Source: Bryoerythrophyllum caledonicum (Eukaryota; Streptophyta; Bryopsida; Pottiales; Pottiaceae). From it: a stretch of 64,000 bases of DNA. The position numbers and the translations under genes were made by a program. The stretch spans positions 16,310,990 through 16,374,989 of the forward strand of contig OZ020518.1 in assembly GCA_963971425.1 (NCBI GenBank), in the 5' to 3' direction. Under the pieces are notes generated by a model, which searched no databases, had not been told where the DNA came from, and saw nothing but the letters and a program-made list of their open reading frames with translations. This document shows, piece after piece, positions 17,037 to 53,715 of the stretch (positions within the stretch are counted from its first letter, which is position 1; each line of letters opens with the position of its first letter).

Positions 17037-17729
17037 TTTTTTTCCCTTCAATTTAGTGCTAATTGGGCCCACTTTCATTTATTGTCCGTAGTCAAAAATT
17101 GGATAGATTCCACTTTTCGTGCATATTTGTTACCAATTTCACACAATTTGATCATTTTCATCCACGTAGGTTCATTCTCCAAATGAAAGTCAATGATAAA
17201 ACAATAAAATAAAATTGGACAAAATAGAGCCAAGAACAATATTTGCCAAAATTGAGAAAGCTATCTTGCTCTACATAGCTAGAAAAATTCCACTAAATGT
17301 AATATTGAGCTAAATGAAATGTTGATCATGTTGCCAACGAGTAGTTACTTAACTCAATGAGATAAAGGCTAAAATATTCTAGTAATAAATTTTGACATAA
17401 TTTGCAAGCTTCACGCATAAACCGTTTGTGCTAAAGACTTTTGACATAATACTTGTGGTGAAATTCTTACTCTCTATACTAGTATTGTGGAAGAATGTAT
17501 ATGAATTATTTGAATGACAACTTACTACACTAAACTTGGTTTTTCTTCATTACTTTTCTTTAATACTTCAAATTACAAATAATTTCTTGGAGATGAAATT
17601 TAAGCTGAGTTCTAAAATCTACAAGTTTAACTGTTTAAGCAATGTGGTTTGTATTATGCAGAATTTGTCTTAAACTTATAATATTTGCTGTGTTTGCAAT
17701 TTTTCAAGAGATAGAAAACATTACATTTA
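17037..17729. other. AT-rich spacer, no gene seen
   Basis: Strongly AT-rich sequence between two mobile elements. No open frame, repeat or RNA gene that I can support. Confidence 0.4.
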
Positions 17730-17847
17730 AGGTAAGCCCCCCATTAACCAACAAAAACCAATAGCCAACGCCTATAAAATTGGGATATATCCAACCTTCT
17801 TCAATCCCATTACCACCAACTCAGCTCCAAATGAAGGTTTTCTATTA
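17730..17847 (-). mobile_element. MITE family 1, copy 3, left part (split by insertion)
   Basis: Reverse-oriented copy beginning AGGTAAGCCCCCC. It matches the family until TCTATTA at 17,841-17,847, where homology stops abruptly and the large element begins. The rest of the same MITE resumes at 35,757, so this is one MITE interrupted by a 17.9-kb insertion. Confidence 0.85.
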
Positions 17848-17886
17848 AAGGCTCTTTACATCTAGATGGTTAGGGCTGGAGCCCAA
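17848..17886 (+). repeat. left terminal inverted repeat of the 17.9-kb element
   Basis: Starts AAGGCTCTTTACATC and contains TGGAGCCCA. It pairs with the right end at 35,716-35,753. The match is imperfect, about two thirds of positions over the first 38 bp by eye. Confidence 0.75.
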
Positions 17887-18396
17887 AAAACTCCCCAGTT
17901 TTGATTGGAGTAAAGAATTGGTACCCCGGAAATGGATTTACATCAAGCAAAATGCGGGCTATGGCCCAAAGTTATTTCCGTAGATGAGAAATCTAGTTGG
18001 AATCCTACATGGCAGATTTGAATAGTCTTTTACAGATCTTAAGGAGACTTATTTCCTACAACCTCTAGGAGGTTGTATTTCTGGAAGGCCAGGAGAGTAT
18101 TTTTCAAAACCTATTTCAGCCAATCATTTATAATATTTTACTACTGACATTTACTGTTGACATTCACCGCTGACATTCACCGCTGACATTCACTGCTGAA
18201 GTTTATAATTACTGCTGATATTTATTGCTGAAATTACATTTACATTTTTGTAATTTAAATTCGTTTGGAAACTTTACAAATTTCTTTTGAAAATATAATC
18301 TAACCGTACTACAAATTCTTTCACTATGGGGTAGTTCTTAAAAGAGCCCATTTTCATATAACTACTTAGAAATTCAGCCTAAATGTTGTATTTAAC

Positions 18397-18426
18397 TATT
18401 TCTGGACTTTGCAAAGTCCAGAAATA
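18397..18426. repeat. 30-bp perfect palindrome near the left end
   Basis: Two 15-bp arms, TATTTCTGGACTTTG and its exact complement, meet with no spacer. One arm is found again in inverted position near the right end of the element (35,389-35,407, TAGTCCAGAAATAGTTGAA), so it belongs to the subterminal structure. Confidence 0.85.
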
Positions 18427-18509
18427 ACGAAGAAGGATTTCAGTGTAGTAGAATTGTGGCACCAAAGAGATTGAAAGGGATACAGATAAAATTAATCTTA
18501 ATCATTCAG

Positions 18510-18707
18510 CCGGATATCTCCGGATGATTTCAGTCAGACGATACGAATCGATTACAGAGATAGAACCTTGCTCAAGGCGAGGTACGGTATTATCGACAGA
18601 AATCCTACTGACTCGATTTTCTTCCCAGGGAGTACTTAGGGGTTGCCTTGAGAAAAGGATTTTAGAGACATGTCATGGATGCCGTTAAATCAGCCGGAGA
18701 TATCCGG
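18510..18707. repeat. palindrome variants, left cluster
   Basis: Two variants of the dispersed palindrome: CCGGATATCTCCGG (18,510-18,523) and CCGGAGATATCCGG (18,694-18,707). Each differs from the consensus by one or two bases but keeps both CCGG ends. Confidence 0.85.
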
Positions 18708-18890
18708 TCGAAAGTAGGAAAATCAGAAAACATTTGGTCATTTTTCAAAAACAAAATTGTTTTTTCGGAAGGGAGTCCTTTTACAACACCATCACATACT
18801 TGATCAACTCTACGAGACATCAATGACTAGTCTCAGTAAAACTCCTGGATGAAAGACCAATACCTAACCTAGCACTACCTCTGAAGACTT

Positions 18891-19328
18891 CTAAACATCT
18901 TTCCAGTGCGCCGGCGCGTACATGTCCGAATCAACATCAGACCCTGTGTCACAACCACTTTGAAATGGGCTGCAGCCGCCCTCTGAAGAAGATTCCTCCT
19001 TGTCATCATACCATGGGTCGTCCTCCTCCTCTTCTTGAACCGAAGGACCTCCGAAGACAGTCTCATCTTCATCACAGTCGACCTCGTTCTCATCCTCCCC
19101 TTCATAGTCGCTGCCGTCCTCTTCCTCTGGAACATACTTGCTCTGAGCATCCTCCTCCAATTCGTCCCGAATACGCCGATTGGAACCTATCGCCCTTATC
19201 TACCCGACTTGAAAGCGAAGCACTCGTCCCTTCTCCGAATCCTAAGCGTCGCTCACCATCCTTCGTGAAACTCTCCGGTCTATCAAATCAGACTCTTCCC
19301 TCTCCCTCTTCCTACTTGCAAAAGCCAT
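18891..19328 (-). pseudogene. acidic ORF of unknown function, two in-frame TAG codons
   Basis: From the ATG at 19,326-19,328 a frame runs 145 codons to TAG at 18,891-18,893, interrupted by TAG at 19,242-19,244 and 19,200-19,202. The N-terminal part is basic (SRKREREES). The rest is Asp/Glu-rich with runs such as PEEEDGSDYEGEDENE and QEEEEDDPWYDDKEE. No domain is recognised. Highly acidic low-complexity tails are common on nuclear and DNA-binding proteins. It lies downstream of the DUF7869 gene on the same strand and could be its terminal exon or a separate small gene. Confidence that it is or was coding is moderate, resting on composition and the absence of other stop types. Confidence 0.4.
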
Positions 19329-19907
19329 CTCCTCTCTCTCAACCCTGGCTATGGACTAACAAAACTAACAAGTTGAAAGACAAAATATATGAATTGGTGC
19401 AGACCTGAACCCTTTCTTATACTATCCTCCCTACCAACCCATTAATTACAGTTCTCGAGCGTAGATAAAAGAAGAGTCATTGATATAAGTCGCCATAACA
19501 CCGAGACTGATAGAAATAAAGGCAGCTTCCACAGACACGAATGACCAACATGGTAGGCCACGCGTCAAGCGTGCTGTCGTAACGTGATGTGCAAAGTACA
19601 ATCTCCGCCGCCAACCATTAGCATCACTTCAATGATAAGAAGGTCCTCGTACAACTGATATGAAGTGTGTAATTGACCGCGTATTTTCATTTTAGTTGTG
19701 GCATGTCAAAAATCTAAGAAGGAACCAACCACGGGAATAACCAAAAGGTCTCTGATACATTGTTGAAAGTTCCATCGTAAAATAAAATGCAGTATCGTAG
19801 TCGCAGAAGATCTCCAGATATGATTCAATACTATTCAGAACACCTAGGTAAGCTCAAAATTGGGAAATGTGGATCCTATTGTTGAGAATGGGGGATGTGA
19901 ATCTCCT

Positions 19908-20214
19908 ATCCGGAGATCTCTAGCTAGATCTCACCGACTTAAACATGGCAATATACGAACATCCTTACGTCCACAAAATATAACTTCCATAGCCGGAGAT
20001 CTCCCATAAGCTTTCGGAGAGACGTGAGGGTCCAAAAATATACCGTTGGCATAATCCAGTCAATAGTAACTCTGTCACTCCTCAATGTACCCAAATTACA
20101 GTGAATGGAAGAGCACACTTTTGGTCCTCTTCACGATGACTGGCGAGAGCTGAAAGGAGGGATGTCGAACTCGGGCCCAGATAAATAAAAGCGTCCACAG
20201 CCGGAGATCTCCGG
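19908..20214. repeat. palindrome cluster between acidic ORF and transposase
   Basis: Contains a perfect CCGGAGATCTCCGG at 20,201-20,214 and half-decayed copies at about 19,909 (CCGGAGATCTCTAG) and 19,993 (CCGGAGATCTCCCA). All lie outside recognised exons. Confidence 0.85.
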
Positions 20215-20401
20215 TGCTCTCGGTGTGGACGTAGCAACTCCACGAGATTTTTCACAAAGAGAATTTCACAGAACTGAATTATACATAGAGGGACTGATCA
20301 ACGTATCAGGGATCAGCGGCATTCGCTTTCTCTAAGTTAATAAGCGCTGCTTCTTTCATTTTCCGAGGAATGGACCTCGTAAGTTGGTTAACTTTGCTTG
20401 A

Positions 20402-22748
20402 CTAGGTCGCAAACAACACGAAACTCACATGACACCAAACATGCTTCTTTTGGTCCGCAACCCAAGTGGCTTCCCAACAGTCCTGGTACTTCCTCTTCAG
20501 ATTCTTCTGTTTGTTATCAGGCTCCCAATACTTAACGAGGAATTTTCCGTAGTTGACATTATCATCTTCCCTGACGACCTCCGAAACTACTCTTTCCTGC
20601 CAGACAGGATAGATTTCAGGATCACTAGGTCTTACTAAAACCCAGGAGCCATGACGAATGTCATGCCAAGGATTAAAAGTGGACTTGGGGGCTTCATTTG
20701 CGGGTCCGCAGTAAGGCTCAAGAACCTCATCCTCGGGAGTGACATCCTCTGGTTGTGGAAGCAATCCTAGCGGATTTTCACCTCCCACATGAGGGCCTCT
20801 CCAATCATGGGTAGACCAGAATCCCTCTTCGAATTCGGAAGGCTTCTGGAGAAGTGGCTTGTCTAGCTCGTCGATGACATCCTTCCAATACTGTAAGTAT
20901 GGGCGGATGGAATCCGCGTACCCTGCGCACTTAGTCATTCTGGACGCCCAGTAGTCAACGTACTTCCGAAGCCCCGTCTTTATAAAGTTTTTGTTCTCCG
21001 TCGCTTTCCTGGCCTTGTCTCTGGCAACATCTTGGTTTCCAACAGGGCTCTGCTCCTCATTACTCCATATAGGCTTGAAAGGAACGGGATTGGGAGATCC
21101 TATTGGAAGCATGGGACGTCCGAAGTCATCAACCTTCCAAAGTTTTATCGGCTCTCTGTTCATGGGTAACCACTCTGCGTCAACAGTAGATTTCTTGAAC
21201 TTCATGACCGGAACACCGTCATTGTCAACGAAGAACTTGAAAAGATGCATATCACTAAGTCCCACCAGACGTGCCGCCCCGTTGCATAGTTAGCCATCGA
21301 CGTACGATTTGAAGTCGGCGACCTCTTGGATAACTTCCGGCATGAAGGCTAGTTTCTGTGACTTCATGAATGCCTTCATAAAATCCGCTAGAATATATGT
21401 ACTGCTTTTCTTCATTTCTTTCGATAGATGACTAAAGTAAGCATCAATATCTTCATGCGTATGTCCGACAACCAAGAAGCCAACCTGTATCTCCATGAAA
21501 ACACCTCGAGCAGTTAGCAGTGATAAGAATGCCATCAAGTATTGGTTCTTGTTGTCCTTCGCTGAGTTGTCAAGCTGTAGAAACAATTTCGGTGGCAAAG
21601 GTTTCGGTCCCTTAAAAGCACTCGGCTCCACGGGCTCTAAAGCGTCGACGCACCTGCTTTTTTTCCTCATGAGCGCCGCGAACATCGAGTTTGGAGGAGG
21701 GTGCTCGAAGAGCGCGCGCGTCTCATGTAAAGGTGCTCCCTTAAGCGGCCGAAAAAGTTTTGTCAGAGAGGAGATGGTGGCGTTTGAATCTTCAGGCCAT
21801 AATACAAGAGCATAGTGAGCATACGCTCCGTCGACATGACCGTGAGCCACCATTCCAGTGACATTTATGGGAAGCTGTCCGAGACCAGATGTCGCCTTAG
21901 TAGTCCTCCACATGCGAGGAAGGGCCGTCTTCGTCGTGTCCATCTTGTCGTGAATGACACAAAGAAAGGTCAGCTGCTTCGCCTTCGACTCCTCTCTCCA
22001 TGTCGCGTAAAGCTTCCGGCAAGATTGCTGGTGATTCAAGTAAGCCTGCCTGTTGCTATAGAATAGCTCGTAAGCGGGCGTTCCCTTTGGAGTCGTCAGT
22101 AAGAACTGATTGAATTCATCACAAGTACTGCATTTTGCAAAGGTGCTTCCAGATGGCTTAATAGCAACATTCCCGAAGAATTCCTTTCTAACCCTACTAA
22201 TCGTGGACTAACTTACAGGAGGAAGACCGTAGGAGTCGTTTGTCTGCAAGATGAAATAATTACCAAGTGAGAAGAGGATTTCAAAAGAACAATCCAACAG
22301 ACAGTGCGAAGTATAGAGTAAAGCAAATGAAGGTCATTTCATGTCAATGATGACATAGCCGGAGATCTCCGGTTCAGAAACTAGGACTTCGGTCGACTGA
22401 AGAAAGACAGTTCTAATCCATAGAATTATGCAGGGACTGATAACGTACAACATTGACACTGGCTCGAATTTGCTTCCGGTTGTTTCCCGCAGGAAGATAC
22501 TTGAGAGTGTCAATCCGACCATTCCCGACACTCCGCATTTGGTGAGGCATTTGATCCGTGTTGTCATTAATAATCGACGTCATTGACCCCATCGCTTGTA
22601 TAGTGGCAAGTCGTGGGCGCTTGATGCCCTTGTTACGGTGAGTTGCATTGATGATTCCTCTACTGAAATGTGCGATGTACGAGTGAAACGTGGACTTCCG
22701 AATTCCATGGATTGTGTACCATGCAACGGAGCAGACGTCCATTCTCAA
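20402..22748 (-). pseudogene. DUF7869-like (predicted DDE-type) transposase, damaged
   Basis: Read on the minus strand: exon 22,748-22,449, GT-AG intron, exon 22,243-20,402. The first exon carries a VCSVAWYTIHGI..STFHSY segment followed by a Pro/His-rich linker ending TLKYLP, as in proteins that carry DUF7869. The second has a CSTCDEFN zinc-ligand pair, then the conserved core LQLDNSAKDNKNQYLMAFL and FLVVGHTHEDIDAYF with Asp, Asn, His and Asp residues in the usual order. The C-terminal 150 residues contain a small beta-rich module (WVLVRPSDPEIYPVWQERVV to KYWEP) like those thought to bind chromatin. From memory DUF7869 is linked to transposon proteins; catalysis is inferred. Damage: in-frame TAG at 22,208-22,210 and TAA at 21,290-21,292 with homology continuing past both. 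Likely the mobility gene of the element. Confidence 0.72.
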
Positions 22749-24171
22749 TAGAATGACGTACTTTCTCTTCCGGTCCCCGTCAATGGAGTGAAACTGCCCG
22801 CCTACCGAGATCGCATACTCCTTTCGGTCTTCAAAGGATTTGTCATAGAATTTCTGTCTAACAGAAAGAGTCTAGGATTGTTGAAAATATTGGCAGCATC
22901 GTTTGGGACAGTACCTTTCCGAGCTGACTTTGCGAATTTCGTCATCCATAGTCCTCTTGGTGTACAAAGATTCCTTCTTGTTGAGGTCTTCCTGTCGGGA
23001 AATGAAGCGGTAAGGCTCCTTTGCACGACCCCCCAAATAAGCACCAGAATCAGGTTGTAAAGGCAGGGATGCAAAATGATCTATTGTGCTATTCAAAGAC
23101 CTCCCGGAAGGAATACAACATTCAAGAATGGGCCACGATTCATGACTCATAATTCTCTCCGTGTCCCCCACAAAAACGTCGAGGACAGTTACACCAATGT
23201 TATCTTCTCCCAAGCATCCACTACGGAAATGATCCACTGGTAACAACGCCATGATTCTTCCAGAACAGAGTACTAACATATTCCCATCCAATCGCTGCAC
23301 TTCAAGTCCAACCCATCGCTCTCGTGGTACGAAAGGGGACTCGTAAGACCAGAGATCTCCGGTTGGAATCTTCACATCTGCCCTTCTCCATAGGACTGCC
23401 CGCCGAAGTGTGAACAAGTGAACCGTATCCGCGTTGGAAGGGTATGAGTGGAAATTCTTCCGCCAAGGACGTTATGGCCGTTGGTCTAAGTAATACGAAC
23501 TCACTGGAACCGACCGGTATGTCAACTCCAAGCCATTGACCAACTGGGTGAACCTCGACAATTGACGCTTCTCCAATTTCGCCTGAACCTGGCCTCAAAA
23601 GGTTCACGGACAATCCTGACCACAAAACCTCCGACCTTCCAGTAGACTCTTCGGATGGATCATCTTCTTCCGTGTAATCCGCTCGTCCGAAATCGGGGCA
23701 CTCAGTTGCGACCATGGCAAGATCGTCCGAGTCACTCTCCCACCAATCAGAGTCAGACATTCTCCCGACCTCCGTCGGTGGATGTTCGGCTGGTGGCCAA
23801 TAGCCTTAGTATGTGAATAAGTGGACGTGGATTCGAACTGAAAAACCAAAGTGAAAATTGTAGGGTGTGTCTAGCCGGAGATCTCCGGATGACTGGATAA
23901 TGATCAATAACGACCACTTCTTGTGTAAGTGAGGATGAGAAGGGTGAAGCTAGAAGTTCCATTCGTATCTAACCGGAGATCTCCGGTTCATCCGAACCAG
24001 GTTGCCGTGATATCTTTCAATGGTCATTTCGCACTTGAATATCCGGAGATCTCCGGGAACCCTGGGCTAGTAAAATGGGACAGCCAGATGTTTTTGGGAT
24101 AGTTGTCGTGGCCTACAAGCGAGCATGGCAAAATCCAGACTGTCACGGCTAGAACAGCCGGAGATCTCCGG
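22359..24171. repeat. palindrome cluster around the transposase 5' end
   Basis: Five perfect copies of CCGGAGATCTCCGG at 22,359, 23,875, 23,973, 24,043 and 24,158, plus a variant inside an open frame at about 23,347. The first copy lies in the transposase intron. The other four sit within 300 bp just upstream of the presumed transposase start, the place expected for promoter or operator sites. Confidence 0.9.
22872..23760 (-). pseudogene. possible N-terminal exons of the DUF7869 gene, frameshifted
   Basis: Two overlapping minus-strand frames: 23,760-23,302 starts MSDSDWWESDSDDLAM and is acidic, 23,417-22,872 continues as a beta-rich segment (ERWVGLEVQRLDGNMLVL) ending near a cluster of Lys/Cys residues. 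They overlap at about 23,400 in different frames, consistent with one former frame and an indel. They sit directly upstream of, and on the same strand as, the transposase exons, so may be its amino end. No domain recognised. Confidence 0.4.
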
Positions 24172-25237
24172 TTTGCTTTTATGTCGTCATCGAAACATAT
24201 GCCGTACGGAATATTCGAGGGTGTGGCAGAAAGATTCAGTCGCCAATCCCTGAGAACTGTTCGGATTTACACCCCGATCAGGCACGTCATCTTATTTCTC
24301 GAGTCAATATTTATTAGGCGCTCGGGATTTGATTGTACATTAGGAGACGATTTAGTTACTGAATCACTACACGACAACTCCCGATCGACTTTAAAGACAG
24401 AACGAAACACAATCTACACCAATCCTCTCAATTTGAATGCGGATACGGAATTTTACGAGGAAACAAACCTAACACTCCTGGAATACTCTAAATTGTTTCC
24501 CTGCATAATTCTAGCACAATGTCGCGCACGCAAACACTCTCACTGACTGGCTCAGCTCCCACAGTATCCTAAACCTCCAGAGCAAAAAATGATGAGAGCT
24601 GAGTTGAAGGATACTCTTATCAACCTCCTCGTCACCTCCTGGTGGGAAAATTCAGGCGCTCAAATTTGAAACGAATCTTGGGCATGCATACTCTATCATA
24701 GTCACTGCTGTACACCATCATAATAGTGCGCATTCTTCGACGTGCCCACGACCGAGGCCACATTCCACTCATGATAAATGAAAGGCTCGTACTCTTGAGA
24801 TGACCGTATTGTAAGGAAACCATCTAGTTCCCAGAGTGCTGCAAATTAGAAAACGGAAGATGAAGTATGCCCCATGGTGTATCTTTGTGTTTACTAGGGC
24901 CGTATCACGTCATGGACTAAGTCACAGTATAATGTAATCGTATTAAACTTCTCGTACTCACCATTGTAAATGAAATTATATCCTACCCATGGAAAACAGT
25001 CGGCCCACTGCTACCCACTAGTATTGTTCAACTGACACTACAGGACACAAGTGGAACGTCGACATTCATTTCCAATGTGAAATATCTCAAAAATTTCCTA
25101 GTTCGACAGAAGCTATTTGTCTGCTTTTGAAGATACGTGCAGAAATAAATAACTGAGCAGATGCTTTTAGAAGTACAACAACCTGGTCCTATGAAAACGG
25201 GTAAAGCTTCCGTGGTAAGGCTGGATAGTGCATCACG
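24172..25237. other. no gene recognised (inside the element)
   Basis: Contains a plus-strand open frame of 147 codons at 24,103-24,546 without recognisable features and probably accidental. The rest has no open frame of note. This spacer separates the minus-strand and plus-strand gene groups of the element. Confidence 0.35.
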
Positions 25238-25345
25238 GTTTAGGATTTAGGGTTTAGGGTCTAGGGTCTAGGGTCTAGGGTTTAGGTTTAGGGTTTAGGG
25301 TTAAAAGTTCAGGGTGTATTGTTTAGGGTTTAGGGTTTAGGGTTT
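25238..25345 (+). repeat. interstitial telomere-type tract (TTTAGGG)n
   Basis: About a dozen TTTAGGG heptamers and one-base variants (CTAGGGT, TTAGGTT) in two blocks, 25,238-25,312 and 25,320-25,345, fading into GGTTCACGGTTCA-like derivatives up to about 25,420. TTTAGGG is the common telomere repeat of land plants and some streptophyte algae. The tract lies inside the mobile element. Confidence 0.9.
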
Positions 25346-25657
25346 CTACTTCACGGTTTGGGGTTGAAGGTTAAGGGTTCACGGTTCACAGTTCACCGTG
25401 GAAGGTTCTGGGTTCATGAAGGTCGAGGGCTTATATCACCTTTAAATCTATAAATTAAAATTATTTTGATACTATGAACTATAACCTTAAATTTATCGAT
25501 AACTATAACTTTAAAAAAAACTGGATACAATAGCGTGTAAGGAAATTTAGCGATAATTGAACTTTAACTATTTAAGACTTTGATACATTATAATTTAGTT
25601 AGAGGGAGAATAAAGAAGAGAGGGAGGATAATGGATTTAATTTTAGAGTAGACTAGC

Positions 25658-25905
25658 TCTTGGCGCTTGCTTTGCAATGCATTAGTCCAACCATTTTTAT
25701 GTATTTTTTATATTTAAAAATACTAAAAAATGAAAGGTGGAATGATTCACTGTACAGTTGACACCGCGGTTCAAGTAGCGTTTTTGTAGTTCACAGCATG
25801 GTTGACTACGCGATAGTTCACTTCGTGGTTTATTGCGCAAATTATGATTTTAGTAGTATGGCTAGGAGTTGGCGCTTGCTTTGCAACGCATTAGTTCAAC
25901 CATTA
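25658..25905 (+). repeat. two copies of a 37-bp unit
   Basis: TTGGCGCTTGCTTTGCAA, followed by a C/T-variable GCATTAGT(C/T)CAACCATT, occurs at 25,658-25,694 and 25,869-25,905 in direct orientation about 210 bp apart. Confidence 0.8.
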
Positions 25906-26044
25906 ATGTAGTTTTAATATCACAAAATATTTAAGAAGAAAGGTAACAACAATGTATACATCTCTTTGAAACCTATGCATGATTTAATAATGTAATAGAA
26001 TAGAATAGAAAAAATAATTATACTATTACAATAGTACAATATTA

Positions 26045-26835
26045 TTAACCAAGGATGGATATTGAGTAGGAGGGGAAAGTAAAAGTAAAATAAATTAAAA
26101 TCAAGGGAGAGGGAGAGTAAGGGAAGGACAGTAATTGAGAAGGAGAGTAAGAGAGGGAGAGTAAGGGAGGGATTTATTTTAAAGTAGTTTATATTTATAG
26201 AATATCCCACTAGGGGAATTTAGGGAATAAAAAAAAAGTCAAAATTAGAAAAGAGATGGAGAGGGAGAGTAAGGAAGTGAGGGAGAATAAGGGATAGGAA
26301 GGGAGAGTAAGCGAGGAAGAGTGCGGGATTTTTTTTAGAGTAGTTATTTAATTTTAGAATGTGAATTTATTGAAAGAAGGGAAATCCAAAAAAATAAAAT
26401 TCAAGAGGAAAATAGAGATGGAGATGGAGAAGGAGAGGAGAGTAAGAGTATAATAAATTAAAAACAAGTAGGAGGGAGAGTAAGGGAGGGAGAGTAAGGA
26501 AGAGAGGGAGAGTAAGAGAGGGAGAGTAAGGGAGGGATTTATTTTAAAGTAGTTTATATTTTTAGAGTATGTAATAAGCGGAATCTAAAAAGAAAATCAA
26601 ATGTAAAAAAGAGATGTGGAGGGAGAGTAAGGGAGGAAGAGTGCGGGATTTATTTTTAGAGTAGTAGGTTAATTTAAGAATGTGTAATTATTGAAATCAC
26701 GGGGAGTCTAAAAATTACTAGAATCAAGATTAAAAATGAGATGGAGATGGAGACGGAGGGGAGAGCAAAACTTAAATAAGAAAAACAAGTGAGGGAAAGA
26801 AGGGAGGGAGAGTAACGGAGAGGGAGATTAAGCTT
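26045..26835 (+). repeat. purine-rich array, GGGAGAGTAAGGGA units
   Basis: About 800 bp of plus-strand purine-rich sequence built on GGGAGAGTAAGGGAGGGA. It is organised into longer units (roughly 160-210 bp) each ending in an AT-rich stretch of the form GATTTATTTTAAAGTAGT (26,168; 26,324; 26,530; 26,644). Strong purine strand bias over this length can adopt triplex structures. No coding content. Confidence 0.8.
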
Positions 26836-28552
26836 TTTCACTTATGACGTTTTAAATTCAAGTATAATGATTACTCTAATACCCGGTGAACCTGAGTATC
26901 TACTGTAGTCATATGTAATACCCAAGAATCCGGGTATCAATACGTCTTGTCACGCATGCTCACGACATTGACAATGTCATGATTGTGAAATGTACACGTT
27001 GTATATGTACGTGATTAGAGCTGATTTTTTAGTTCACCCACTATCATCATGAGCCGTCATACCCTTGAGCCGTCGAACTTGTCCTTATTGGGTTAGGGGA
27101 ACTCCAAGCATCAAACCTTTCTTGTTTTTTATGGGTTCTGTCTTTTTTATGTGGTAGGTAGTGAGCGCAAGTGGCGGGAGGGGTTTTTTTCGTGGTTTGC
27201 GCAATAGGCGTCAATGCATTAGGTTAGGGCGGTGTGCGCTATGAGAGGCTGTCGGTGTGCGAGGTGAGTGTTGATAAAAGTGAGGGACATTGAGCATATC
27301 GTCGAGAGGTTGTTTCTGGATATAGACTGAAGGTTGGAGAGCAGGACTGGAACAGAGAGATTGAAATAGGCATTTAAATTTAGCGAGCGCCTTGGTTCAC
27401 CAGCGAAGCGGAAACGACGTTGCGGTTGAGGGTGGCGTCTTCACGAACGACCACGACGAACGGGTGCGCCGAATCGGTCAATGAAGAGGTATGTACTGTC
27501 TCACAGATTAAAATTCAGTGTCATCAAATATCGTAGTTGCCTAGGACTACTTAGAATTGGCACTGGGGCAGATGTAGGGTTCGGTAAGCGCCATTAGGGT
27601 TCAAGAGAGTCGAGTAATTTTGATGTTGTTAGACGTTGAAGCGGAATTGTAGGGCTTAGGGTATAGGGTTCTGGTGTTCAGTGCATTCAGTATAGAAGGT
27701 CCGTAAATGAGCATGTTATGCATATTATGCGTGTAAATGAGCATGTTATCCGTAAATGAGCACTGTTGAAATTTATTTCGCGGAAATCTTGTCAATCAGA
27801 TGTGGACCTTAAATTCTAGGGCATCTGAAAAATTGTAGAGTTTGTGAAGCTGAGTTGTTGAATGTTGATGTTATTCAGAGCTGTGAATTTGCTTTGATCC
27901 CGAGCAGTTCCTCGAGGAGGTTGGGAAATGGCGACTGGAGCTAGAACGTCGAGTGAGACTTCATGGAAAGGAGACCGGTAAGTCCACAACATTGAACTGT
28001 TTCCGCTGTGTCCGAGCGACCGTGCGTGGATTCTTTATTTGAGTGTGATTCGAATTTGTTCATTTGATTCCGAGCGGGTGTATGACAATAAAGTACACTT
28101 AAATAATGAAGAGAAACCTCAGAAGTTGAGTACTAGAATTCAGATGTCTGTTAAGCTTTAGTTGATTGAGTTTTTGTTGTCCCTTGATCAAAAGTGTGTT
28201 TCAATTCATGTATATGCGTGTGATTATGGTATTGTACGAACGTTAGAATGTGCTTGTCCATACTGAGTCTTTCGAGTCCGGTCCGATTCAATGAGAAGAG
28301 TAATCCATGTACAAACGTCACATTTGGTGTTCCATCGGAACATTTGCAGATTCACTTTCCTGTGTGTAAGGTCGGTTATTGAAAGCATTGTGTGAGCATT
28401 TGATACGTCTCATTGTGTTTTCTATTTTGAAACATGAAATTTGAGTATGTAAAACTTCCAGAGTAGTATGTCAAACTTCTTTGTGAATGATTGTGAATAT
28501 ACGCGTGATGGTCACTAGCGATTAGTGCAATGTTATTCCGTACTTGTTGCAG
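26836..28552. other. no firm gene; possible 5' exons of the ParB-like gene
   Basis: No long frame. A short candidate exon at 27,908-27,977 (FLEEVGKWRLELERR) lies between an acceptor-like GAGCAG and a donor GTAAGT and could belong to the gene that follows. Support is weak. A short duplicated run around GTAAATGAGCATGTTAT occurs at about 27,705-27,765. Confidence 0.25.
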
Positions 28553-29016
28553 CCGGAGATCTCCGATTGCATCCCGAACGGAATACGGAGTTCCAATAAT
28601 CAGCCGGAGATCTCCGGATAATGTCGAGGTCTGATGAGTCTTAAAATATTTATCCACGATTTAGTAAATCTCGAAAATAGCCGGAGATCTCCGGACGTTA
28701 CGAAGCAATGCATATGCGCGCGTAGAAAGATGTGGATATCGTGAAACTCTTCATTCTGGTCATCATCCGGAGATCTCCGGTTCAAGAAAGAAATGGATCC
28801 GTCTGATCCGCACCGAATCGTTCCTGGACGGATGCACACGACTTCCACAAATCACCCGGAGATCTCCGGATACTTTTGCAATGGGATTGAACAAAAACGA
28901 ACGCCATTGCTGCTCAAAATCCGACATAGAGCTGTAGATCTCGGGACGTTTCAAGTAAGTTTCAATACCCCCTCACGCCGACTACAGATCTTGCCTGCCG
29001 AACCGGAGATCTCCGG
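28553..29016. repeat. dense palindrome cluster upstream of the ParB-like gene
   Basis: Perfect CCGGAGATCTCCGG at 28,604, 28,681, 28,767, 28,856 and 29,003, plus a 13/14 copy at 28,553. Six copies in 464 bp with intervals of 51, 77, 86, 89 and 147 bp. The flanks of each copy are unrelated, so only the 14-16 bp core is repeated. They sit directly before the first clear exon of the plus-strand gene, mirroring the cluster before the transposase. Confidence 0.92.
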
Positions 29017-29249
29017 CTCAGCGCATGCAAGATACTTCAAGCGATTTGAGATCATTCGAGTGTCTGTAGATCTGATAATTGTGCGAAGACCTCCCCTAGC
29101 TGGGGCATTGTTAAATTGATTTAGAAGCTTGTTTTATGTCTTCCATCCCTAGGAATACATCCGGTTTAGAGTGACGGACTCCCCATAGATTACCGGTTAA
29201 TTGCAGTGATTTCTAACTGCATTTGGGTTCTTTCGAACTCATCTTGCAG

Positions 29250-32200
29250 GGATTCGTGGACAACCACACGTCCGACTGAATGTCGTCCCGGGAAGCTTGG
29301 GGCGTTTGTAGAGTTCTGGCTCCTTGAGTTTGTCTATAGAGGAATTCACAATGTTGGCTACGTCTACACATGCCGACAGAGCATTAGCTAGTGGGGAATG
29401 AAGCTCTTGAAAACCGCTAAAGAAGCCTGGAAATACGTCCCCCAACTTCGGATTGGGAAACGGGGACACCCCGACATTCGACTCGAGGTTCTAGAGATGC
29501 AGGGTCTTGACGACGAGGTCTGCCTCCTTGTCGTCCAGGAGAACGTGGACTCATCCACCGAGCCTCTCATATACGGCTTGATCCTGGAGACATCTAAGAT
29601 TTCGAATGCGATGGCGGAGACATGTCAGAATGAGAACTTCTTATATGGCCCTCCCACGAGTGATACTTGGAGGCCGGAGTACATAAATGAGCAGTGGAAG
29701 TGCATGGCAGAAGCACAAGAGAAGTCCCGAAAGCCCGTTCCAGACCCGACACCCATTCTATCTCTGACACCAGAATCAACCCCGGGAAGAAAATGCAAGA
29801 CCACCTTGAAAACTTCGACCCCAGGTTCCTCGTCGCGGGCGGAGAAGGGAAAGAAAGCGAAGGCCAATGAGCCTGGCCTCGCAATCGAACAGTGCCTAAA
29901 CTTCACACAGGCTGACCTCGCCAAAATGAAGCAGACTGAAGTTGAAGCAATTGGCAAGGTTCTCGACGGCGCGTTCAAAAACATTTACATACTCAAGAAT
30001 AAGCCTTTGACAGTAGAAGACCCTGTCATGAAGAAAGATGTCGTGAAGCTTGTTCATTTCAATAACCTACACAGGGCCCCCCCTGGAGGATTAGTGTACA
30101 GGGGCATCCTGAAAGAACGGCTCGAAGGAATCATCAATGCAGTTCGCGCGTCCTCGAAGGCCACGGCCCTTGAGATTCACACTCGAGTCTTGCCACTAAA
30201 GAAAAAACCTGAAGGAACTAAGGTGGAGTTCTTCGCGACCAAGCCGACGAAGGAGGACTGCCTAAGGGACACGACACACTTTTACATTATTGGTGGTCAA
30301 CATACTGTGGAGGCGCACAAGATCTTGTCAAACGAACTGCCAACAACGTGGTCGCTCGAAGAAATCTCGCACTTCTCTATCATCCCGGTTTGGACCAAAC
30401 GGAACTCCAAAGACATGACCCTTCTACAACTCTCGCGCGCTCTAAATCAAGATTTGACGGGTCTGCGGAAAGAACAGAGTTTTACCGAGCAGCTGCAAAC
30501 GTGCAGAGTGAAGTGGTTTGAGTTCGGAAAACCCGCCCCCCAACTCTATGGTCGTCCACAATCTGACGAATTCTCGGTAAGCTTACATTCTCCGCTTGAA
30601 TATATTTCAATATTATCAATGCGCTCATTCTTCAAGCAACCAATCCAATCTACTGGAGATCTCCGGGTGCTCACACACTGAGTTATATATTATTGCAGAC
30701 GTTCCAACGGCAAGTGGTGCCGATGGTTTTCACTCACCTCGGCAAAACTGACCCAAAAGACGCGAAGGTCCCTCTTCTATTCGAGATGGATGACGCGGTG
30801 GTCCAGAAGTGGATCCGAATCGATAGGATGTTCGTCGCTGGACTCCTACCAGACTCGAAGGGGAAGACTACCGACCCAGCTAAGCTGAAGCGGAAGCCTC
30901 TGGTGCTGAACGACTTCAAGCCACTCTACAAAATGCGTGGTGAAGACCTGGACTACCTCGCGGAGTTAGTGCTCGCGAAGAAGGTCTGTGTGAAGTCCTC
31001 CAAAGCGGCAAACCAAGGTACTATGAAAGGGCAGGCCGAGACACTCGAAAATGCGGCGAACAGGGAGAAGAGAATCCGGGCAATGAAGAATGAACTGATG
31101 TTAAATTACAAGTCGCACCTCCTTCCCTCGAAGGCTGCTGACTTCGTCCCTTACACGAAGGAGCAGTGGGACGCCTTTGCGGAAGAGTGGGATATTGGAC
31201 AGGTTCAACTCGAGTCCTAGGTGGACGCCGCTAATCACTCTGCCAAGGGTAAAGCTTGGCTTGAGGGTCAACTGAAGGCGATCAACAAGGAGACCGACCC
31301 CACCCCAAACGTCCTTGTGTCCATTTGGAGTCAACACATTGTTGAAGATGCTGCCGAGGCCACACCCACGGATAACATGTCCCTGTTCGAATCCAAATAC
31401 ACCTGCAGGGTTATGCTAGAGAGAGGGGGCGAGATCGCCGAAGTACTTATCATGCCGGACATTCAGGAGTGGCGTAACGTCAATGACCCTCACTTTTACT
31501 TCTTTTTCCTCTATCGCGTGAAAGACGACATATGCCGTGCACAGGTCCTGGATGCGTTGGACTTCAGAACCATTTTCGACCATCTGGAAGTGGACACGAA
31601 GGACGGGAGGACGAGGGTTAGATCACCGTCCGTTCTTATCACCGATGTCGCGGGATTCGTTGAATTGAAGAGGTACATCAGTCTTCGGCAGAGAGAGTCC
31701 AGGGGCAAGGTGAAATTGTGGGCGACGCATGTGGTCTACTACTTCCCCCACCCAAGTAATTGGTTTTCGACCCCAGTAATCGGGGTCGAGGAGGCAGTGT
31801 ATTGTGTATTCATGTATGAATACGACTCGAGCAAGACGCCTGCTCAGTCATTCAAGAGGCTCTACAAAGTCCACCCGGACAAAATGCCGGCCTTTTTTTC
31901 AGCTGCTCAACATCCAGAAACCATCCAGCGCTGGAAGCAAACCGGTATCCCACAGCTGAGGATCTCGGTCCTCGATTTGTTGTTCACGGGGTTCATTAGA
32001 GAGGGTATGGTGGTTGTCAATGTCCATGGTGGACCACATTTAACATACCTCGGCTTGGTAAACAGGACATCCTTTCCAAGCACTTCAACGTCAAAGATTT
32101 CTGGTCCGTATTCAGTTATATGTTATGGATGACGCCTTACGCAGGTTTTATCTTGCAGACTCATGACGCGCGGGTCCTCGAGATTGTGAACAGCGAAGAT

Positions 32201-32380
32201 GCCAAACTCAAGGCAGAATCCTACGCAGAAGAAATATTCAAGTACCACTTGAATATCTTAGCCGACATACCCGACGCCGTTGTCGAGGAGGCAGAGGAGA
32301 CTGCCATCACTGGGTCAACCCCAGGCGTTGGTGTTCTAACACGGGCAATGTCGAAGATGAACTACACCGGCGAGGGATAA
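29250..32380 (+). pseudogene. ParB/sulfiredoxin-like domain protein, damaged
   Basis: Exons 29,250-30,576 and 30,699-32,380 joined by a GT-AG intron; a clear ATG lies at 29,398. The N-terminal half has a short globular region then a Ser/Pro/Lys-rich linker. In the middle, FYIIGGQHTVEAHKIL resembles the GxHRxxA nucleotide-binding loop of ParB-fold proteins. Later come charged helical segments (NREKRIRAMKNELM). ParB folds bind nucleotides and, in bacteria, palindromic DNA; here that is only a suggestion, but the gene shares its element with many palindromes. Damage: TAG at 29,389-29,391, TAG at 31,218-31,220, and a frame change near 32,050, with sensible protein on both sides of each. The intron holds a palindrome variant at about 30,655. 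Function unknown; probably regulatory or mobility-related. Confidence 0.55.
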
Positions 32381-32402
32381 CGCCTAAGAAAACTACATGA
32401 CT

Positions 32403-32527
32403 CGGAGATCTCCGGCTGTTCATACGTTTAGGATGCCCTCCATATTTTAAGGCTCTTCTTTCTCATGGCCATGCTCAGGTATAGTTCGGCCGGTAGACAA
32501 GGATTACTTTGAACCGGAGATCTCCGG
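32403..32527. repeat. two palindrome copies after the ParB-like gene
   Basis: A 13/14 copy (CTCGGAGATCTCCGG context) at about 32,403 and a perfect CCGGAGATCTCCGG at 32,514-32,527, between the ParB-like stop and the next exon. Confidence 0.9.
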
Positions 32528-32597
32528 GTGTATCATATCGTTTTCTTTTGTATTGCATCCTAATTTTTTTCACACTGACTTCGTCAATGTGACGCAG

Positions 32598-33423
32598 ACG
32601 CCTGATGCCACGATGATTGAAGTTGATGTGCGGTATGAACCGAGTTCATCAGCGGCACCCAATATTGGACTCCAATCCTTGGCCAGAGCCGCGCGGATCA
32701 TCGGTGTGGGCACCCCAATCGACCCCATATAGGTAAACGTTGATGAACCACCTCTTCCTATCAGGCGTGCCTCGCCTAGTTCGACAAGCAACTCTACTCC
32801 GGACGCTAGACTGGGTACTTCTGAAAAGGAAACCTGTTGGCATTCCGGCATGCCACGTTCTCCTCCGCCAAATCGGGACGATGACACGGCAATGTCCGAT
32901 CGCCTGGACTTCGACGACATCCAAAGAGCACCTGGAGATCTCCCGCTGGACGACCCTTCGAGGACGCGTCCAAAAGTGGAGGTTGTGTCCAAGAGTGCCG
33001 AGGACTTGACGTTGCGTGACACCGACCAAACGATTGATGAGGCATCTACGCAACAGACATTGCGTGAATTACATGCTATGAGCCCTCTACGCAGCCCTCC
33101 GCAGAGCCACGGGCAGTTGGCTCAAAAAGAGAAGAAGAAAGCAATCGCGAAGAATCCTGCGGCGAAAGCTCCTCCTCCTCCACCTACAATTCGGACAAGG
33201 GCCCAAAAAGATAAGGTGAATAGTTACTTGTCCATCAAACCTTCTTCATTGTTCTAAGGACAGTTCACTCGATGCAAACCGTATTCTTACCACTTCATTA
33301 CTGGTATTCAGGGGTCGGCAGGATCAATACAGTCGAAGGATGTCGGTGACAGAAACCCCGCACAGACTGCTCAAGTCGCTGGTGTAGCTCAGACTTCTAG
33401 GGATACTCCACCTACTGTCCCAG
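32598..33423 (+). pseudogene. low-complexity exons upstream of the NIF-like region
   Basis: Exon 32,598-33,215 (206 codons, with TAG at 32,730-32,732) and a second possible exon 33,312-33,423, joined by a GT-AG intron. The protein is Ser/Pro/Asp-rich and then Lys/Ala-rich (AQKEKKKAIAKNPAAKAPPP), so disordered. It may be the amino-terminal or linker part of the phosphatase-like gene that follows, or the tail of the ParB-like gene. No domain recognised. Confidence 0.4.
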
Positions 33424-33566
33424 GTGCCTAATATGTACATTCATACTTACGTGCCATCATCTATACAGTGCTCATTCTTCCATCGAGCATTTCTAGATTG
33501 TGAGTGCAGAACACTTCTATATGTATAATTGAAATTTCTCTGTGCTGAACAACTTCCTCATCTTAG

Positions 33567-34082
33567 TCTACGTACTCGTATTTTGGGTTCAAGTCCGACA
33601 AAGCTTACTACAATCGTCCGAGAGCCTCCAACCGAGGATCAGGTAACATCAAATTGGAGTTGCGCAAGAAAGGTGCTGTCATTCCGGAAGGCGTCACAGT
33701 CCTGACGCAGGCCCATTGCACATCAACATCATATACGCTCCCATCCCATCCAAAAAAGCCAATTTTCCTTAAGGACCTGACAGTTTATAACACCAAGGCA
33801 TGGCCCAGGTCTCCCAAGGATGTCTTGCTTGTGGACGATACCCCACTAAAGAACGTCCTTAACGATCCATTCAGCGCAGTTCACCCGCCATCATGGACTG
33901 GGTTGTCGAATGAAACCTGGTTGTCCACCATTTTTCTCCCATGGCTCTCCGGACTGCTAGCGTCAAATGAGGATGTTCCCGACTTTGTTAGACGGAATCA
34001 TTTGATGTTTGCAAGTGATCCAGGAGACAAAAATTCCAAAGAGGCCCGCTCCATGGTGAAGGGCATAATTCCGGCGCCTTAG
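33567..34082 (+). CDS. FCP1/NIF-type phosphatase domain fragment
   Basis: Open frame from an acceptor-like CTTAG at 33,562-33,566 to TAG at 34,080-34,082. It contains TQAHCTSTSYTLPSHPKKP, then FLKDL, then DVLLVDDTPLKN followed by an AVHPPSW segment. This is the order seen in the second half of FCP1-homology (NIF, HAD-superfamily) phosphatases of plants, where the VDD.P motif supplies the late catalytic aspartates. The amino-terminal DxDxT nucleophile motif is not visible upstream, so the domain appears truncated and may be inactive. In the host such enzymes dephosphorylate protein substrates including the RNA polymerase II tail. Its presence inside a transposon suggests capture of a host gene fragment, unless the element uses it. 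Confidence 0.6.
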   Translation, partial: STYSYFGFKSDKAYYNRPRASNRGSGNIKLELRKKGAVIPEGVTVLTQAHCTSTSYTLPSHPKKPIFLKDLTVYNTKAWPRSPKDVLLVDDTPLKNVLNDPFSAVHPPSWTGLSNETWLSTIFLPWLSGLLASNEDVPDFVRRNHLMFASDPGDKNSKEARSMVKGIIPAP

Positions 34083-34437
34083 AACAATGAATTATACTGG
34101 ATATTATAAACTGTATGCTTTGTAAATGTTAAGTCAAGAAGGTCTGTGGGATTTTGACCTTTCAATTTTGAAGATAAATGTTGTTGTCAATAACGTTATT
34201 TGTTGAGGTCCTTCTTTTCATTTGTTATTGTTAGTGTCTCGCCCCCAAACTTCACCTTCCAATATCTGTGAACACTTTTGAGTATTCTCCTGACCATTTC
34301 GACTGCCGAACGTTGGTATGGGAGGGGCACCCAGAGATCTCTGGTCGAATTCCTGTCACTTGAACTCCTCCTACCATATTTTCTCTTCATTCCAATGTTC
34401 AATTTCTAATTCGATGGTCTTGCCTTCTTATTTGCAG

Positions 34438-34968
34438 GTCATAATCATATCTTTCCGCGGTCCTCTCTGCTCGGATGAGGTCCTTGACTCAGCCAAATCC
34501 CGCTCCACGCAGTTGCCTTCCTTTGATGACACGGCAGATGTTGTTCGAATACTACTGCGGTATTTCAATGTCGTGATCTAGTCTCCTATGCGTCCAGATA
34601 GGCTCATGGAGGCGGCCCAAGTGTTATTGCCCCCAGACATCTTATCAGATATTCTTTTTTGCTATGCCAGCAAATAGACTCGAAGGCCTAGCTTTGTTAG
34701 GTTTCTCCGCATCTTCAAGAAGGCCTCATTTAATCCTCAAACAAGGCATTATTTGTAGCCTAAGTGTGTTGTTGTTGCAGATCTAGATCCATTCAAGAAT
34801 TCTAGAAAGGCTATAGTCCATTATCTAATGTATGGGAGACACCATACAGGACGGGTAGAGGGCATTTGTAAAGCATTTAAATTAGAATAGTTGAATCGAT
34901 TTTCCGTAGATTACACGTGCCTCTTAGCAACGGCCACCCTTTATTTATTGTATGACACTTTTTTATAA
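34438..34968 (+). pseudogene. frame interrupted only by TAG codons, unknown
   Basis: From an acceptor-like TTTGCAG at about 34,438 one plus-strand frame runs 177 codons to TAA at 34,966-34,968 with TAG at 34,579, 34,675, 34,756 and 34,888 but no other stop. Segments such as RLMEAAQVLLPPDILSDIL and SFVRFLRIFKKASF look protein-like (amphipathic helices). No domain recognised. Either a decayed exon in which CAG codons became TAG, or chance. Confidence 0.3.
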
Positions 34969-34995
34969 TGAAACAGTTTAGTATTGGACTCTTAC

Positions 34996-35350
34996 TCTAA
35001 TTTCATGCGGAGATATCCGGTTGCATGTTCTATCAATTGCGAGTAATTTCTGTCCGCAGCTCTGTCCCATTTTTCCCTACCACATTTTTCCCAACCACAC
35101 ATTTGCGATGTACAGTATGTCCATCAATTTCTATTCTCAGGACTCGGTTCTTTTTCTGAATTCCACCTTGATATTTTCCCGGAGATATCCGGTTGCATGC
35201 TGCGGACACACGTATTGTCTAAATTCAAATTTGGTTTCACTAGCCATTTCTTCCTTCATAAGTGTCATTGGTGATACATTTAATGCTTAAAAAGTACTCT
35301 AAACTCCTCGACTTTTATGCTTCACTATCTTTTAGGAGGCACATCTCCGG
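34996..35350. repeat. palindrome variants, right cluster
   Basis: CGGAGATATCCGG variants at about 35,006 and 35,180, both followed by TTGCATG, and a half copy (ATCTCCGGAT) near 35,344. These GATATC variants match those at the left end of the element (18.5-18.7 kb), so the variant form marks both extremities while the perfect AGATCT form occupies the middle. Confidence 0.75.
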
Positions 35351-35438
35351 ATCTTTCTTTTAGTCCTTAGTCCAGAATTCACCTCATAGTCCAGAAATAG
35401 TTGAATTGGGCATCCAAGTACACAATGGGCCACAACCC

Positions 35439-35630
35439 TTCTATTCGGGTTTACATCTAAACTTTGGGCCTTCTATTCGGATTTACATCTAAACTTTGGG
35501 CCTTCTATTCGGATTTACATCTAAACTTTGGGCCTTCTATTCGGGTTTACATCTAAACTTTGGGCCTTCTATTCGGGTTTACATCTAAATTTTGGGCCTT
35601 CTATTCGGGTTTACACCTAAACTTTGTGCC
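35439..35630 (+). repeat. subterminal array, six 32-bp units
   Basis: Six head-to-tail copies with exact 32-bp spacing (starts 35,439, 35,471, 35,503, 35,535, 35,567, 35,599). Each has TTCTATTCGG, then GTTTACATCTAAAC or its ATTTACATCTAAAC variant, then TTTGGGCC. The GTTTACA core is shared with the terminal repeat. One degenerate inverted counterpart lies near the left end (about 17,936-17,975). Arrays of this kind next to a terminus are often transposase-binding sites. Confidence 0.92.
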
Positions 35631-35715
35631 ACAACCCACTTCGAACTCCCTTGTTTGGTGGAAGATACCCTACTTACAATGATTTTATCCTTCAAGCGGG
35701 GTACCACTTGTGTCT

Positions 35716-35753
35716 ATGGGCTCCAACCCAAACCTTCACGTGTAAACATCCCC
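35716..35753 (-). repeat. right terminal inverted repeat of the 17.9-kb element
   Basis: Reading inward from 35,753: GGGGATGTTTACACG, then TTGGAGCCCA. It pairs with 17,848-17,886. The adjacent TTA at 35,754-35,756 duplicates TTA at 17,845-17,847. Confidence 0.78.
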
Positions 35754-35756
35754 TTA

Positions 35757-36006
35757 GTCAAGACCCTTACTTTTGGTCGTTGGTTGTGGGGGGTATCTAC
35801 TGCTGGCCACCCACTAAACATGGCTGCGCAGTTTGAAAATTCATAACTAATTCATTTTTCATCGAAAAAATATGAAATCACTTGGGTTGGAATTGTAATT
35901 CTATTGGCTATCACTGAAAAATGATAGTATAATTATCTCCTCTCTCCATATTCCTTCATAATTATCTTACACATTCCTTAACTTGTCGGTTTTAGGGGGC
36001 TTACCT
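35757..36006 (-). mobile_element. MITE family 1, copy 3, right part
   Basis: Continues the reverse-oriented MITE begun at 17,730, ending GGCTTACCT with TA outside. Together the two halves rebuild a MITE of about 365 bp. Its alignment to the copy at 1,805-2,134 defines the insertion point of the large element to the base. Confidence 0.87.
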
Positions 36007-36085
36007 TAACCAAATTAAATACTTCAACCTTACATTGCATTTTTGGTGTGTGTGTGTAACCCAAAAAACCTGAGCTACACACCGA

Positions 36086-50559: not shown

Positions 50560-50562
50560 AAA

Positions 50563-53706: not shown

Positions 53707-53715
53707 AGATTGTTG

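Follow-up and report, generated by a model that had tools for sequence, protein, structure and literature searches.

In Arabidopsis, VANDAL transposons carry a family-specific short motif in promoters and introns that is bound by the transposons' own protein, VANC; in the available parts of the papers that describe them, VANC motifs are rare elsewhere and differ between related families, and the protein lowers the methylation of its own family (PMC5735166, PMC10398659). In En/Spm, subterminal motifs are bound by TNPA, as the available part of the source has it (PMC2613891). Here, we analyze a DNA transposon from Bryoerythrophyllum caledonicum that is studded with a 14-bp palindrome, CCGGAGATCTCCGG. 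It lies in a 64,000-nucleotide stretch of contig OZ020518.1 (positions 16,310,990 to 16,374,989, forward strand), referred to below as the window. An earlier annotation made from the letters alone (the sequence-only reading) stated that no described DNA transposon of such an architecture is known, which is not supported, VANDAL/VANC (PMC5735166, PMC10398659) and En/Spm TNPA (PMC2613891) being precedents, as far as the accessible portions of these papers go.

Apparent confinement of the palindrome to one transposon family

The window copy of the palindrome transposon (W) was compared with five further copies in the source genome (A to E), of which C consists of the left half only, and the homology of D ends shortly before the right end. 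Comparison with the other genomic copies set the ends of W at 18,383 and 35,413 (17,031 bp). In the somewhat longer interval 17,848–35,753, CCGGAGATCTCCGG occurs 12 times perfectly and 14 times with 1–3 changes, in agreement with the sequence-only reading, which was also right about two clusters: four perfect copies are at 23,875–24,171, before the gene for a transposase with a DUF7869 domain, and six copies with 0–1 changes at 28,553–29,016, before a gene labeled ParB-like by eye. Reckoned over the same interval, 24 of the 26 sites avoid the estimated exons (p = 1.5e-4). With a profile derived from 19 sites, 25 matches were obtained inside the interval and 1 outside, while 30 Markov-simulated elements gave a mean of 0.33 and a maximum of 2. 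Genome-wide (437 Mb), 2,718 perfect copies of CCGGAGATCTCCGG were counted, compared to 3 for the reversed control. A chance origin of the array is ruled out by the simulations and by the genome-wide count. Fifty of the 2,718 places are listed (contig C1 up to 6.79 Mb), and every one of them falls in A (16), B (16), C (7), or D (11). The palindrome was thus found in no unrelated DNA among the listed places, and its proposed confinement to the element is not refuted.

These counts bear on the proposal that a host dimeric transcription factor binds the sites, the transposon riding a host regulatory programme. Palindromes are common targets of dimers, and the element needs host transcription. Still, the restriction of the perfect motif to the family at the listed places, and its excess over the reversed control, are not what a host factor predicts, and we consider this proposal quite improbable.

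In the remainder of the window, there is a single copy with one mismatch, at 9,668. The sequence-only reading had counted it correctly. With the palindrome masked, the surrounding ca. 140-bp stretch scored 39 against the left-end motif of the transposon, and none of 261 control windows exceeded 28. The right-end half of the test failed (the masked stretch scored 28 against the right-end motif, below the control maximum of 35). When both ends were pooled, the best control window, with a score of 35, was one that overlaps the stretch (9,577). The near-copy is probably a relic of the palindrome transposon family.

Constraint and anatomy of the sites

Divergence at the sites was measured in eight aligned regions of W, A, B, and D (and of C in three of the eight). 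These regions contain 22 of the 26 sites, i.e., all except 18510, 18694, 23349, and 32932; columns gapped in W or with fewer than three letters were dropped, and the column test dropped any gapped column. Pairwise divergence was 0.050 (106/2130) at the sites, compared to 0.173 in 20-bp flanks, 0.144 in other noncoding DNA, and 0.098 in coding DNA. When W, the copy that had defined the sites, was removed, 18 of 273 columns were variable at the sites versus 666 of 3,322 noncoding columns (Fisher test, 2.7e-9). Over the whole transposon (W, A, B, and D, with C and E left out), divergence was 0.050 at the sites (102/2039), 0.090 in coding DNA, 0.164 in noncoding DNA within 150 bp of sites, and 0.107–0.114 in other noncoding DNA. 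A further survey covered 30 transposase-gene loci (W and 29 others, taken from the best 72 of 4,384 scored candidates) and five sites, 19804 not being among them; nucleotide diversity (π) was calculated on the 29, and columns with fewer than 20 letters were dropped. Mean π was 0.0147 at the five sites, compared with 0.1404 in noncoding and 0.0675 in coding DNA. The sites at 22359 and 23349 were each perfect in 28 of the 30 copies, 19993 in 27, 19910 in 26 (one copy reads N), and 20201 in 22.

Contrary to the possibility, raised with the sequence-only reading, that other copies of the element lack the palindrome, most sites are kept at the same positions. Every perfect or one-mismatch site detected in A, B, or D corresponds to a site in W, and most of the array is therefore shared by descent. 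The copies are 85–93% identical to one another, and the array could have been present in a recent founder and inherited neutrally by all of them, as their relatedness and the common positions of most sites would allow. However, the sites change ca. 3- to 10-fold less than adjoining noncoding DNA, and also less than coding DNA, and the flanks of different sites are unrelated, which makes neutral inheritance scarcely credible. The palindrome is real and part of the transposon, and selection acts on it.

The palindrome extends beyond its 14 bp. Among the 12 perfect copies, A at position −2 (or T at position +15) is present in 21 of 24 half-sites (p = 8e-9), so that the full symmetric site can be written as A n CCGGAGATCTCCGG n T, with a footprint of ca. 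18 bp. The absence of conserved flanks described in the sequence-only reading thus fails at −2/+15 and holds further out: beyond 4 bp, the flanks of the 12 perfect sites have a mean likeness of 0.279, against a background of 0.279. The most alike of the 66 flank pairs (28604/28681) scored 0.44–0.45, the 99% point of the background being 0.37–0.38. Flank likeness being at background level on average, the sites did not spread together with their neighborhood.

Changes within the sites are unevenly distributed. In W, they affect 19 of 208 positions in the CCGG arms and 4 of 156 positions in the AGATCT core (p = 0.015), and none of 156 core positions when the subterminal class is set aside. This class reads AGATAT instead of AGATCT; in W, it comprises four of four subterminal sites and none of 22 internal ones. 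In W, A, B, and D, the AGATAT form occupies all 16 aligned cells; it is also present in E, and C agrees at the left end. All four AGATAT sites lie within ca. 410 bp of the transposon ends; counted from the left end, the first site begins at base 128 in six of six copies, and in W, A, B, and E, 222–225 bp separate the outermost right site from the right end. From this pattern, we infer that internal AGATCT and subterminal AGATAT sites may form two functional classes.

The presence of CCGG at each end and the perfect palindromes could also point to a role in DNA modification or structure, such as a methylation target, a cruciform, or a replication or boundary signal, that involves no sequence-specific reader. 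The core is spared more than the CCGG arms, however, and conservation reaches A(−2), which is the pattern that a bound protein would leave; in a pure cruciform, paired changes would be tolerated. We regard a role of this kind as very improbable. A methylation target, as suggested in the sequence-only reading, is conceivable, but CpG is kept and not lost (see below).

Sister palindrome, CpG retention, and a putative reader

The same genome contains a sister family, whose transposase is ca. 35% identical to that of the palindrome transposon over 592 residues and which has at least 48 copies (best 48 of 5,127 candidates). Two of these copies were examined, one across 20 kb (L058+L056) and the other across 10 kb (L057). 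The genes follow the same order in mirror image: a transposase, a relative of the ParB-like protein (E = 3e-5), and a phosphatase (E = 2e-9). CCGGAGATCTCCGG was not found in the sister copies at up to two changes. They carry a different palindrome, TTTAGCTCGASTCGAGCTAAA, with 13 perfect copies and 25 copies with 1–5 changes in 20 kb. It clusters before the sister ParB-like gene (6,415–7,600) and before the sister transposase (14,453–15,110), and variant copies are located near the end of the sister element (18,385 and 18,481). At up to six changes, there are 20 matches to TTTAGCTCGASTCGAGCTAAA in L056, versus 0–1 in twenty simulated 10-kb sequences, and none was found in the window, either inside the transposon or outside 17,848–35,753. 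The array on the transposase side of the sister element has a period of 46–47 bp and looks like a product of tandem growth, as described for VANC targets.

A host factor would have to account for an unrelated palindrome occupying the corresponding places of a sister family in the same host. The palindrome being swapped between sister families, a reader encoded by the element is favored over a host factor. One such reader could be the N-terminal region of the transposase, which would bind the palindromes, autoregulate both promoters by repression or activation, and assemble on the four subterminal sites for transposition, with no anti-silencing involved. This would fit the near-constant spacing between the subterminal sites and either end, as is the case for transposase accessory sites, the clusters before both genes, and the precedent of TNPA, so far as the excerpted source describes it (PMC2613891). 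Yet the majority of the sites lie far from either end, within introns or downstream of genes, with one in an exon, and the palindrome has changed wholly between families whose transposases are still 35% identical over 592 residues. We regard autoregulation by the transposase without anti-silencing as unlikely. Between the two families, ca. 100 residues of the ParB-like proteins are still recognizable, compared to the 592 aligned for the transposase. Because of this divergence, the ParB-like protein is our first candidate for the reader.

CpG content was examined as the observed/expected ratio (o/e) in W, A, B, and E; C and D, which lack the right end, were left out. CpG o/e was 0.86–0.89 in the four copies, compared to 0.38 in the flanks of A (2,232 bp), 0.34 in those of B (3,126 bp), 0.56 in those of E (996 bp), and 0.62–0.67 around W; a Ty3 element of the window has a ratio of 0.52. 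In the 551 bp before the ParB-like gene, CpG o/e reached 1.45 with the sites masked. The ratio of CpG transitions to other C transitions was 1.18–1.54 in six pairs of element copies versus 2.9, pooled, in six pairs of host repeats. The pattern fits low methylation of the transposon over its recent history.

Together, these results lead to an explanation that we hold with slightly better than even confidence: the ca. 20 internal palindromes and four subterminal variants are likely bound by an element-encoded dimer that would mark the element's own regulatory DNA, and this is predicted to keep the transposon expressed and unsilenced. The proposal of the sequence-only reading that the palindrome is a site for an element-encoded dimeric protein, itself putative, thus remains the best one and is strengthened by the motif swap in the sister family. 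That a protein binds the sites, which protein does so, and that silencing is counteracted are inferences. A dimer made from an element gene would bind the ca. 18-bp palindrome upstream of the two main genes, within introns, and downstream of genes, and the same dimer would also occupy the variant sites near the transposon ends. The reader may be the ParB-like protein or, as second candidate, the transposase N-terminal region. Internal AGATCT sites would act on transcription and chromatin, and subterminal AGATAT sites in transposition. If the palindrome changes along with its reader, each family would act on itself alone. In the best reading by analogy, the sites would be self-recognition sites, VANC-like in function and unrelated in sequence. 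A broader version, in which DUF7869 transposons make up a new superfamily, each family of it with a private palindrome and a matching reader, so that several mutually blind codes coexist, and in which the ParB-like protein loads, spreads, and excludes silencing, seems to us decidedly unlikely.

Several observations weigh against self-recognition combined with anti-silencing. There is no CpG peak before the transposase (0.89, masked). The host control for transitions comprises 45 CpG cells (23 changed; other C, 88/507 cells), and its six pairs scatter from 0 to 4.3. The trend of CpG with distance to the nearest site is weak (Spearman −0.34, p = 0.023). Inside the sites, CpG transitions are 2.6-fold more frequent than those of other C (40/498 versus 24/774), i.e., deamination has not been escaped, and CpG o/e in the sister family is 0.77. 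CpG retention could also reflect recent spread or a foreign origin. The sister-family evidence comes from two copies, just one of them read over 20 kb. Not all sites behave alike: 20201 is unexceptional in the 30-copy survey, 6.5% of noncoding 14-mers being equally or more conserved; 23973 is missing in A and 29003 in A and B, and 32514 is lost in B; and for three of the 26 sites (19804, 28932, and 32932), each of the four aligned copies has either an imperfect version or none. Finally, ParB was not detected in the ParB-like protein with Pfam, NCBIfam, PHROGs, or PDB sequences, and its structure model reached a predicted local distance difference test (pLDDT) score of 40. With no library support for ParB and a failed model, gene position and rapid divergence are the grounds for proposing this protein as candidate binder.

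Element structure and comparison with known systems

Features of the locus are collected in Table 1. The window contains three nested layers: a miniature inverted-repeat transposable element (MITE), an 875-bp inverted-repeat element with a TTA duplication inserted in it, and the 17,031-bp palindrome transposon inside the latter. This follows from the other copies ending at 18,383 and 35,413 without the outer element. The left end matching 18,383 is common to W and A to E, and the right end matching 35,413 to W, A, B, and E. The outer 535 bp on the left are missing in A, B, C, and D, and the outer 340 bp on the right in all three of A–D that reach the right half (A, B, and D). The three complete copies A, B, and E have exact 4-bp target duplications (CCTA, TTGT, and AAGG) and inverted repeats ATGC...GCAT; in W, the duplication is imperfect (CTAA/CCAA) and the left end is ATGT. 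The split MITE and the TTA duplication (17,845–17,847 and 35,754–35,756) reported in the sequence-only reading are real, the intact MITE paralogue at 1,803–2,137 showing the empty site. The TTA ends at 17,848/35,753 are those of the 875-bp outer element, and their assignment to the palindrome transposon was wrong; reading four other copies rules it out.

A TTA duplication and GGG ends are marks of PIF/Harbinger-type elements. An identity of this type, based on TTA and GGGG ends, fits at most the outer 875-bp element and not the palindrome transposon. The outer element has imperfect inverted ends, a 13-bp array on its left part, and six 32-bp repeats on the right. No transposase was found in it by Pfam (six-frame scan of 17,848–35,753), and it could be a non-autonomous member. 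The MITE family has at least three copies in the window (1803–2137, 15454–15743, and the split copy at ca. 17725–17847 plus 35754–36008). At the left end of the palindrome transposon, 18399–18425 forms a near-perfect hairpin (DNA fold z −6.8), which recurs unchanged in A, C, and D, whereas B differs by one change; there is none at the right end. An interstitial TTTAGGG-like telomere-type repeat (25237–25345) lies inside the transposon and is followed by a degenerate GGGAGAGTAA minisatellite to ca. 26830.

Table 1. Positions of features in the window; site coordinates are those of the 14-bp palindrome.
Feature	Position	Strand	Remarks
Palindrome-bearing DNA transposon	18383..35413	.	ends common to A, B, E on both sides; C, D left only
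Left 4-bp target duplication CTAA	18379..18382	.	partner CCAA 35414-35417
Left terminal inverted repeat ATG(C/T)...TTTAACTATTTCTGGACTTTG	18383..18412	+	
Right terminal inverted repeat	35384..35413	-	
Outer 875-bp element, left part	17848..18382	.	absent from A-D; TTA duplication, empty site
Outer 875-bp element, right part	35414..35753	.	six 32-bp tandem repeats
Subterminal AGATAT-class site	18510..18523	.	starts at base 128 from left end
Subterminal AGATAT-class site	18694..18707	.	
Four palindromes 3' of transposase gene	19804..20214	.	19804 (imperfect in aligned copies), 19910, 19993, 20201
DUF7869 transposase gene	20402..23774	-	exons ~20402-22237, 22452-22850, 22931-23774; interrupted in W by a frameshift and two in-frame stops
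Palindrome in transposase intron	22359..22372	.	perfect in 28/30 copies
Palindrome in transposase exon 1	23349..23362	.	decayed in W, perfect in 28/30 copies
Four perfect palindromes 5' of transposase	23875..24171	.	23875, 23973, 24043, 24158
Cluster 5' of ParB-like gene	28553..29016	.	28553, 28604, 28681, 28767, 28856, 28932 (3 changes), 29003
ParB-like gene (label by eye)	29398..32380	+	exons ~29398-30573, 30699-32057, 32159-32380; one in-frame stop, exon 2
Palindrome in ParB-like gene intron	30653..30666	.	
Two palindromes 3' of ParB-like gene	32402..32527	.	32402, 32514
Open frame	32733..33257	+	imperfect palindrome at 32932
Probable C-terminal part of NLI/FCP1-like HAD phosphatase gene	33567..34082	+	NIF E 0.005, below curated cut-off
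Palindrome decayed in W	34331..34344	.	perfect in A, B, D
Subterminal AGATAT-class site	35007..35020	.	
Subterminal AGATAT-class site	35179..35192	.	222-225 bp from right end in W, A, B, E
Probable family relic	9620..9790	.	sole outside near-copy (9668)

The transposase matches Pfam PF25273 (DUF7869) with E = 1.5e-40 and 139.3 bits (curated cut-off 26), and it has a DDE/D RNase H fold. Exon 1 is open in A, B, and D. The protein is 26–45% identical to DUF7869 proteins of Physcomitrium, Ceratodon, and Riccia, and at 90% identity or more, its exon is present in at least 72 genomic copies including W (best 72 of 4,384 candidates). A BAH/SH3-like barrel that might read chromatin is predicted at its C-terminus, after the DDE core (ca. 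20405–20680, minus strand). Between the left end and the transposase gene, 18900–19350 (minus strand) may be a small gene encoding a highly acidic protein, with stops in W. The ParB-like protein has eight metagenome relatives in which IIGGQHT is invariant; we take its GGQH motif, by eye, to resemble ParB. The partition-like arrangement suggested in the sequence-only reading is not supported, since no library finds ParB. The phosphatase label of 33567..34082 derives from its relationship to a sister-family protein with an NIF match of E = 1.9e-16. A six-frame Pfam scan of 17,848–35,753 at E 0.05 matched DUF7869 alone. In the viral contigs searched, neither the transposase nor the ParB-like protein had relatives; nine viral contigs contained the 18-bp site once each, with no clusters. 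The one prokaryotic contig with closely spaced motif copies (L010, three copies 48 bp apart) was rejected as unrelated, the motif being part of an in-frame coding repeat in DNA of 69% GC.

Elsewhere in the window, a Ty3-type retrotransposon (49141–57009, minus strand) encodes in its frames, among others, a C5 cytosine methylase domain (E = 4.8e-8) as well as a PHD finger. Gypsy elements with a DNA methyltransferase have been described in the charophyte Klebsormidium, in a paper whose main text, in the part available, does not contain the word PHD (PMC5890265). A diverged segmental duplication (8468–15047 versus 39955–44626, blocks 72–84% identical) carries what appears by eye to be a receptor-kinase gene; one frame tried gave no Pfam match. 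The probable relic at 9620–9790 sits in an apparent intron (by eye) of one of the receptor-kinase-like copies.

In the literature searched, no paper names DUF7869, so that the name led to no described transposon family, nor was a palindrome transposon of the present kind found in titles and abstract beginnings. The moss and liverwort DUF7869 (PF25273) proteins share the transposase domain of the element, and the present analysis assigns a likely transposase role to DUF7869 in a large multi-gene transposon that encodes a transposase, a ParB-like protein, and a probable FCP1-like phosphatase. The site is simple enough for in vitro testing.

With ParB-parS, the element has in common palindromes clustered near the gene for a GGQH-motif protein, a likeness seen by eye that presumably extends to ParB. 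Unlike ParB-parS, there is no ParB profile match and, by six-frame Pfam scan of 17,848–35,753, no ParA-like gene. The likeness to CACTA/En-Spm and TNPA, within what the partly available source describes, consists in repeated short motifs, subterminal copies, large size, and an own DNA-binding protein, which is putative here. Unlike CACTA/En-Spm, the element has ATGC...GCAT ends and 4-bp duplications instead of CACTA ends and a 3-bp duplication, and most of its sites are internal rather than in the subterminal few hundred bp.

The sequence-specific transposon anti-silencing found described in the literature is that of a group of Arabidopsis Mutator elements. Like VANDAL/VANC, as presented in the accessible text, the element has a family-specific noncoding motif that differs between related families. 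The VANC motif, according to the same text, is 9 bp long, has one orientation, and is expanded in tandem repeats, whereas here the site is dyad-symmetric, 14–18 bp long, and without shared flanks, the transposase is of the DUF7869 type, and the target duplication is 4 bp. In contrast to VANDAL, the MULE profile scores 12.8 bits here (cut-off 27.6), compared to 139.3 for DUF7869. Unlike VANC targets, the sites of the window family show no tandem-repeat build-up, their flanks being unrelated, while the sister family has its 46–47 bp array. A private regulatory motif, a motif swap in a sister family, and retained CpG in an unrelated type of transposon suggest a convergent solution. Thus, the logic is VANC-like, while the transposon, the site, and the proteins are not.

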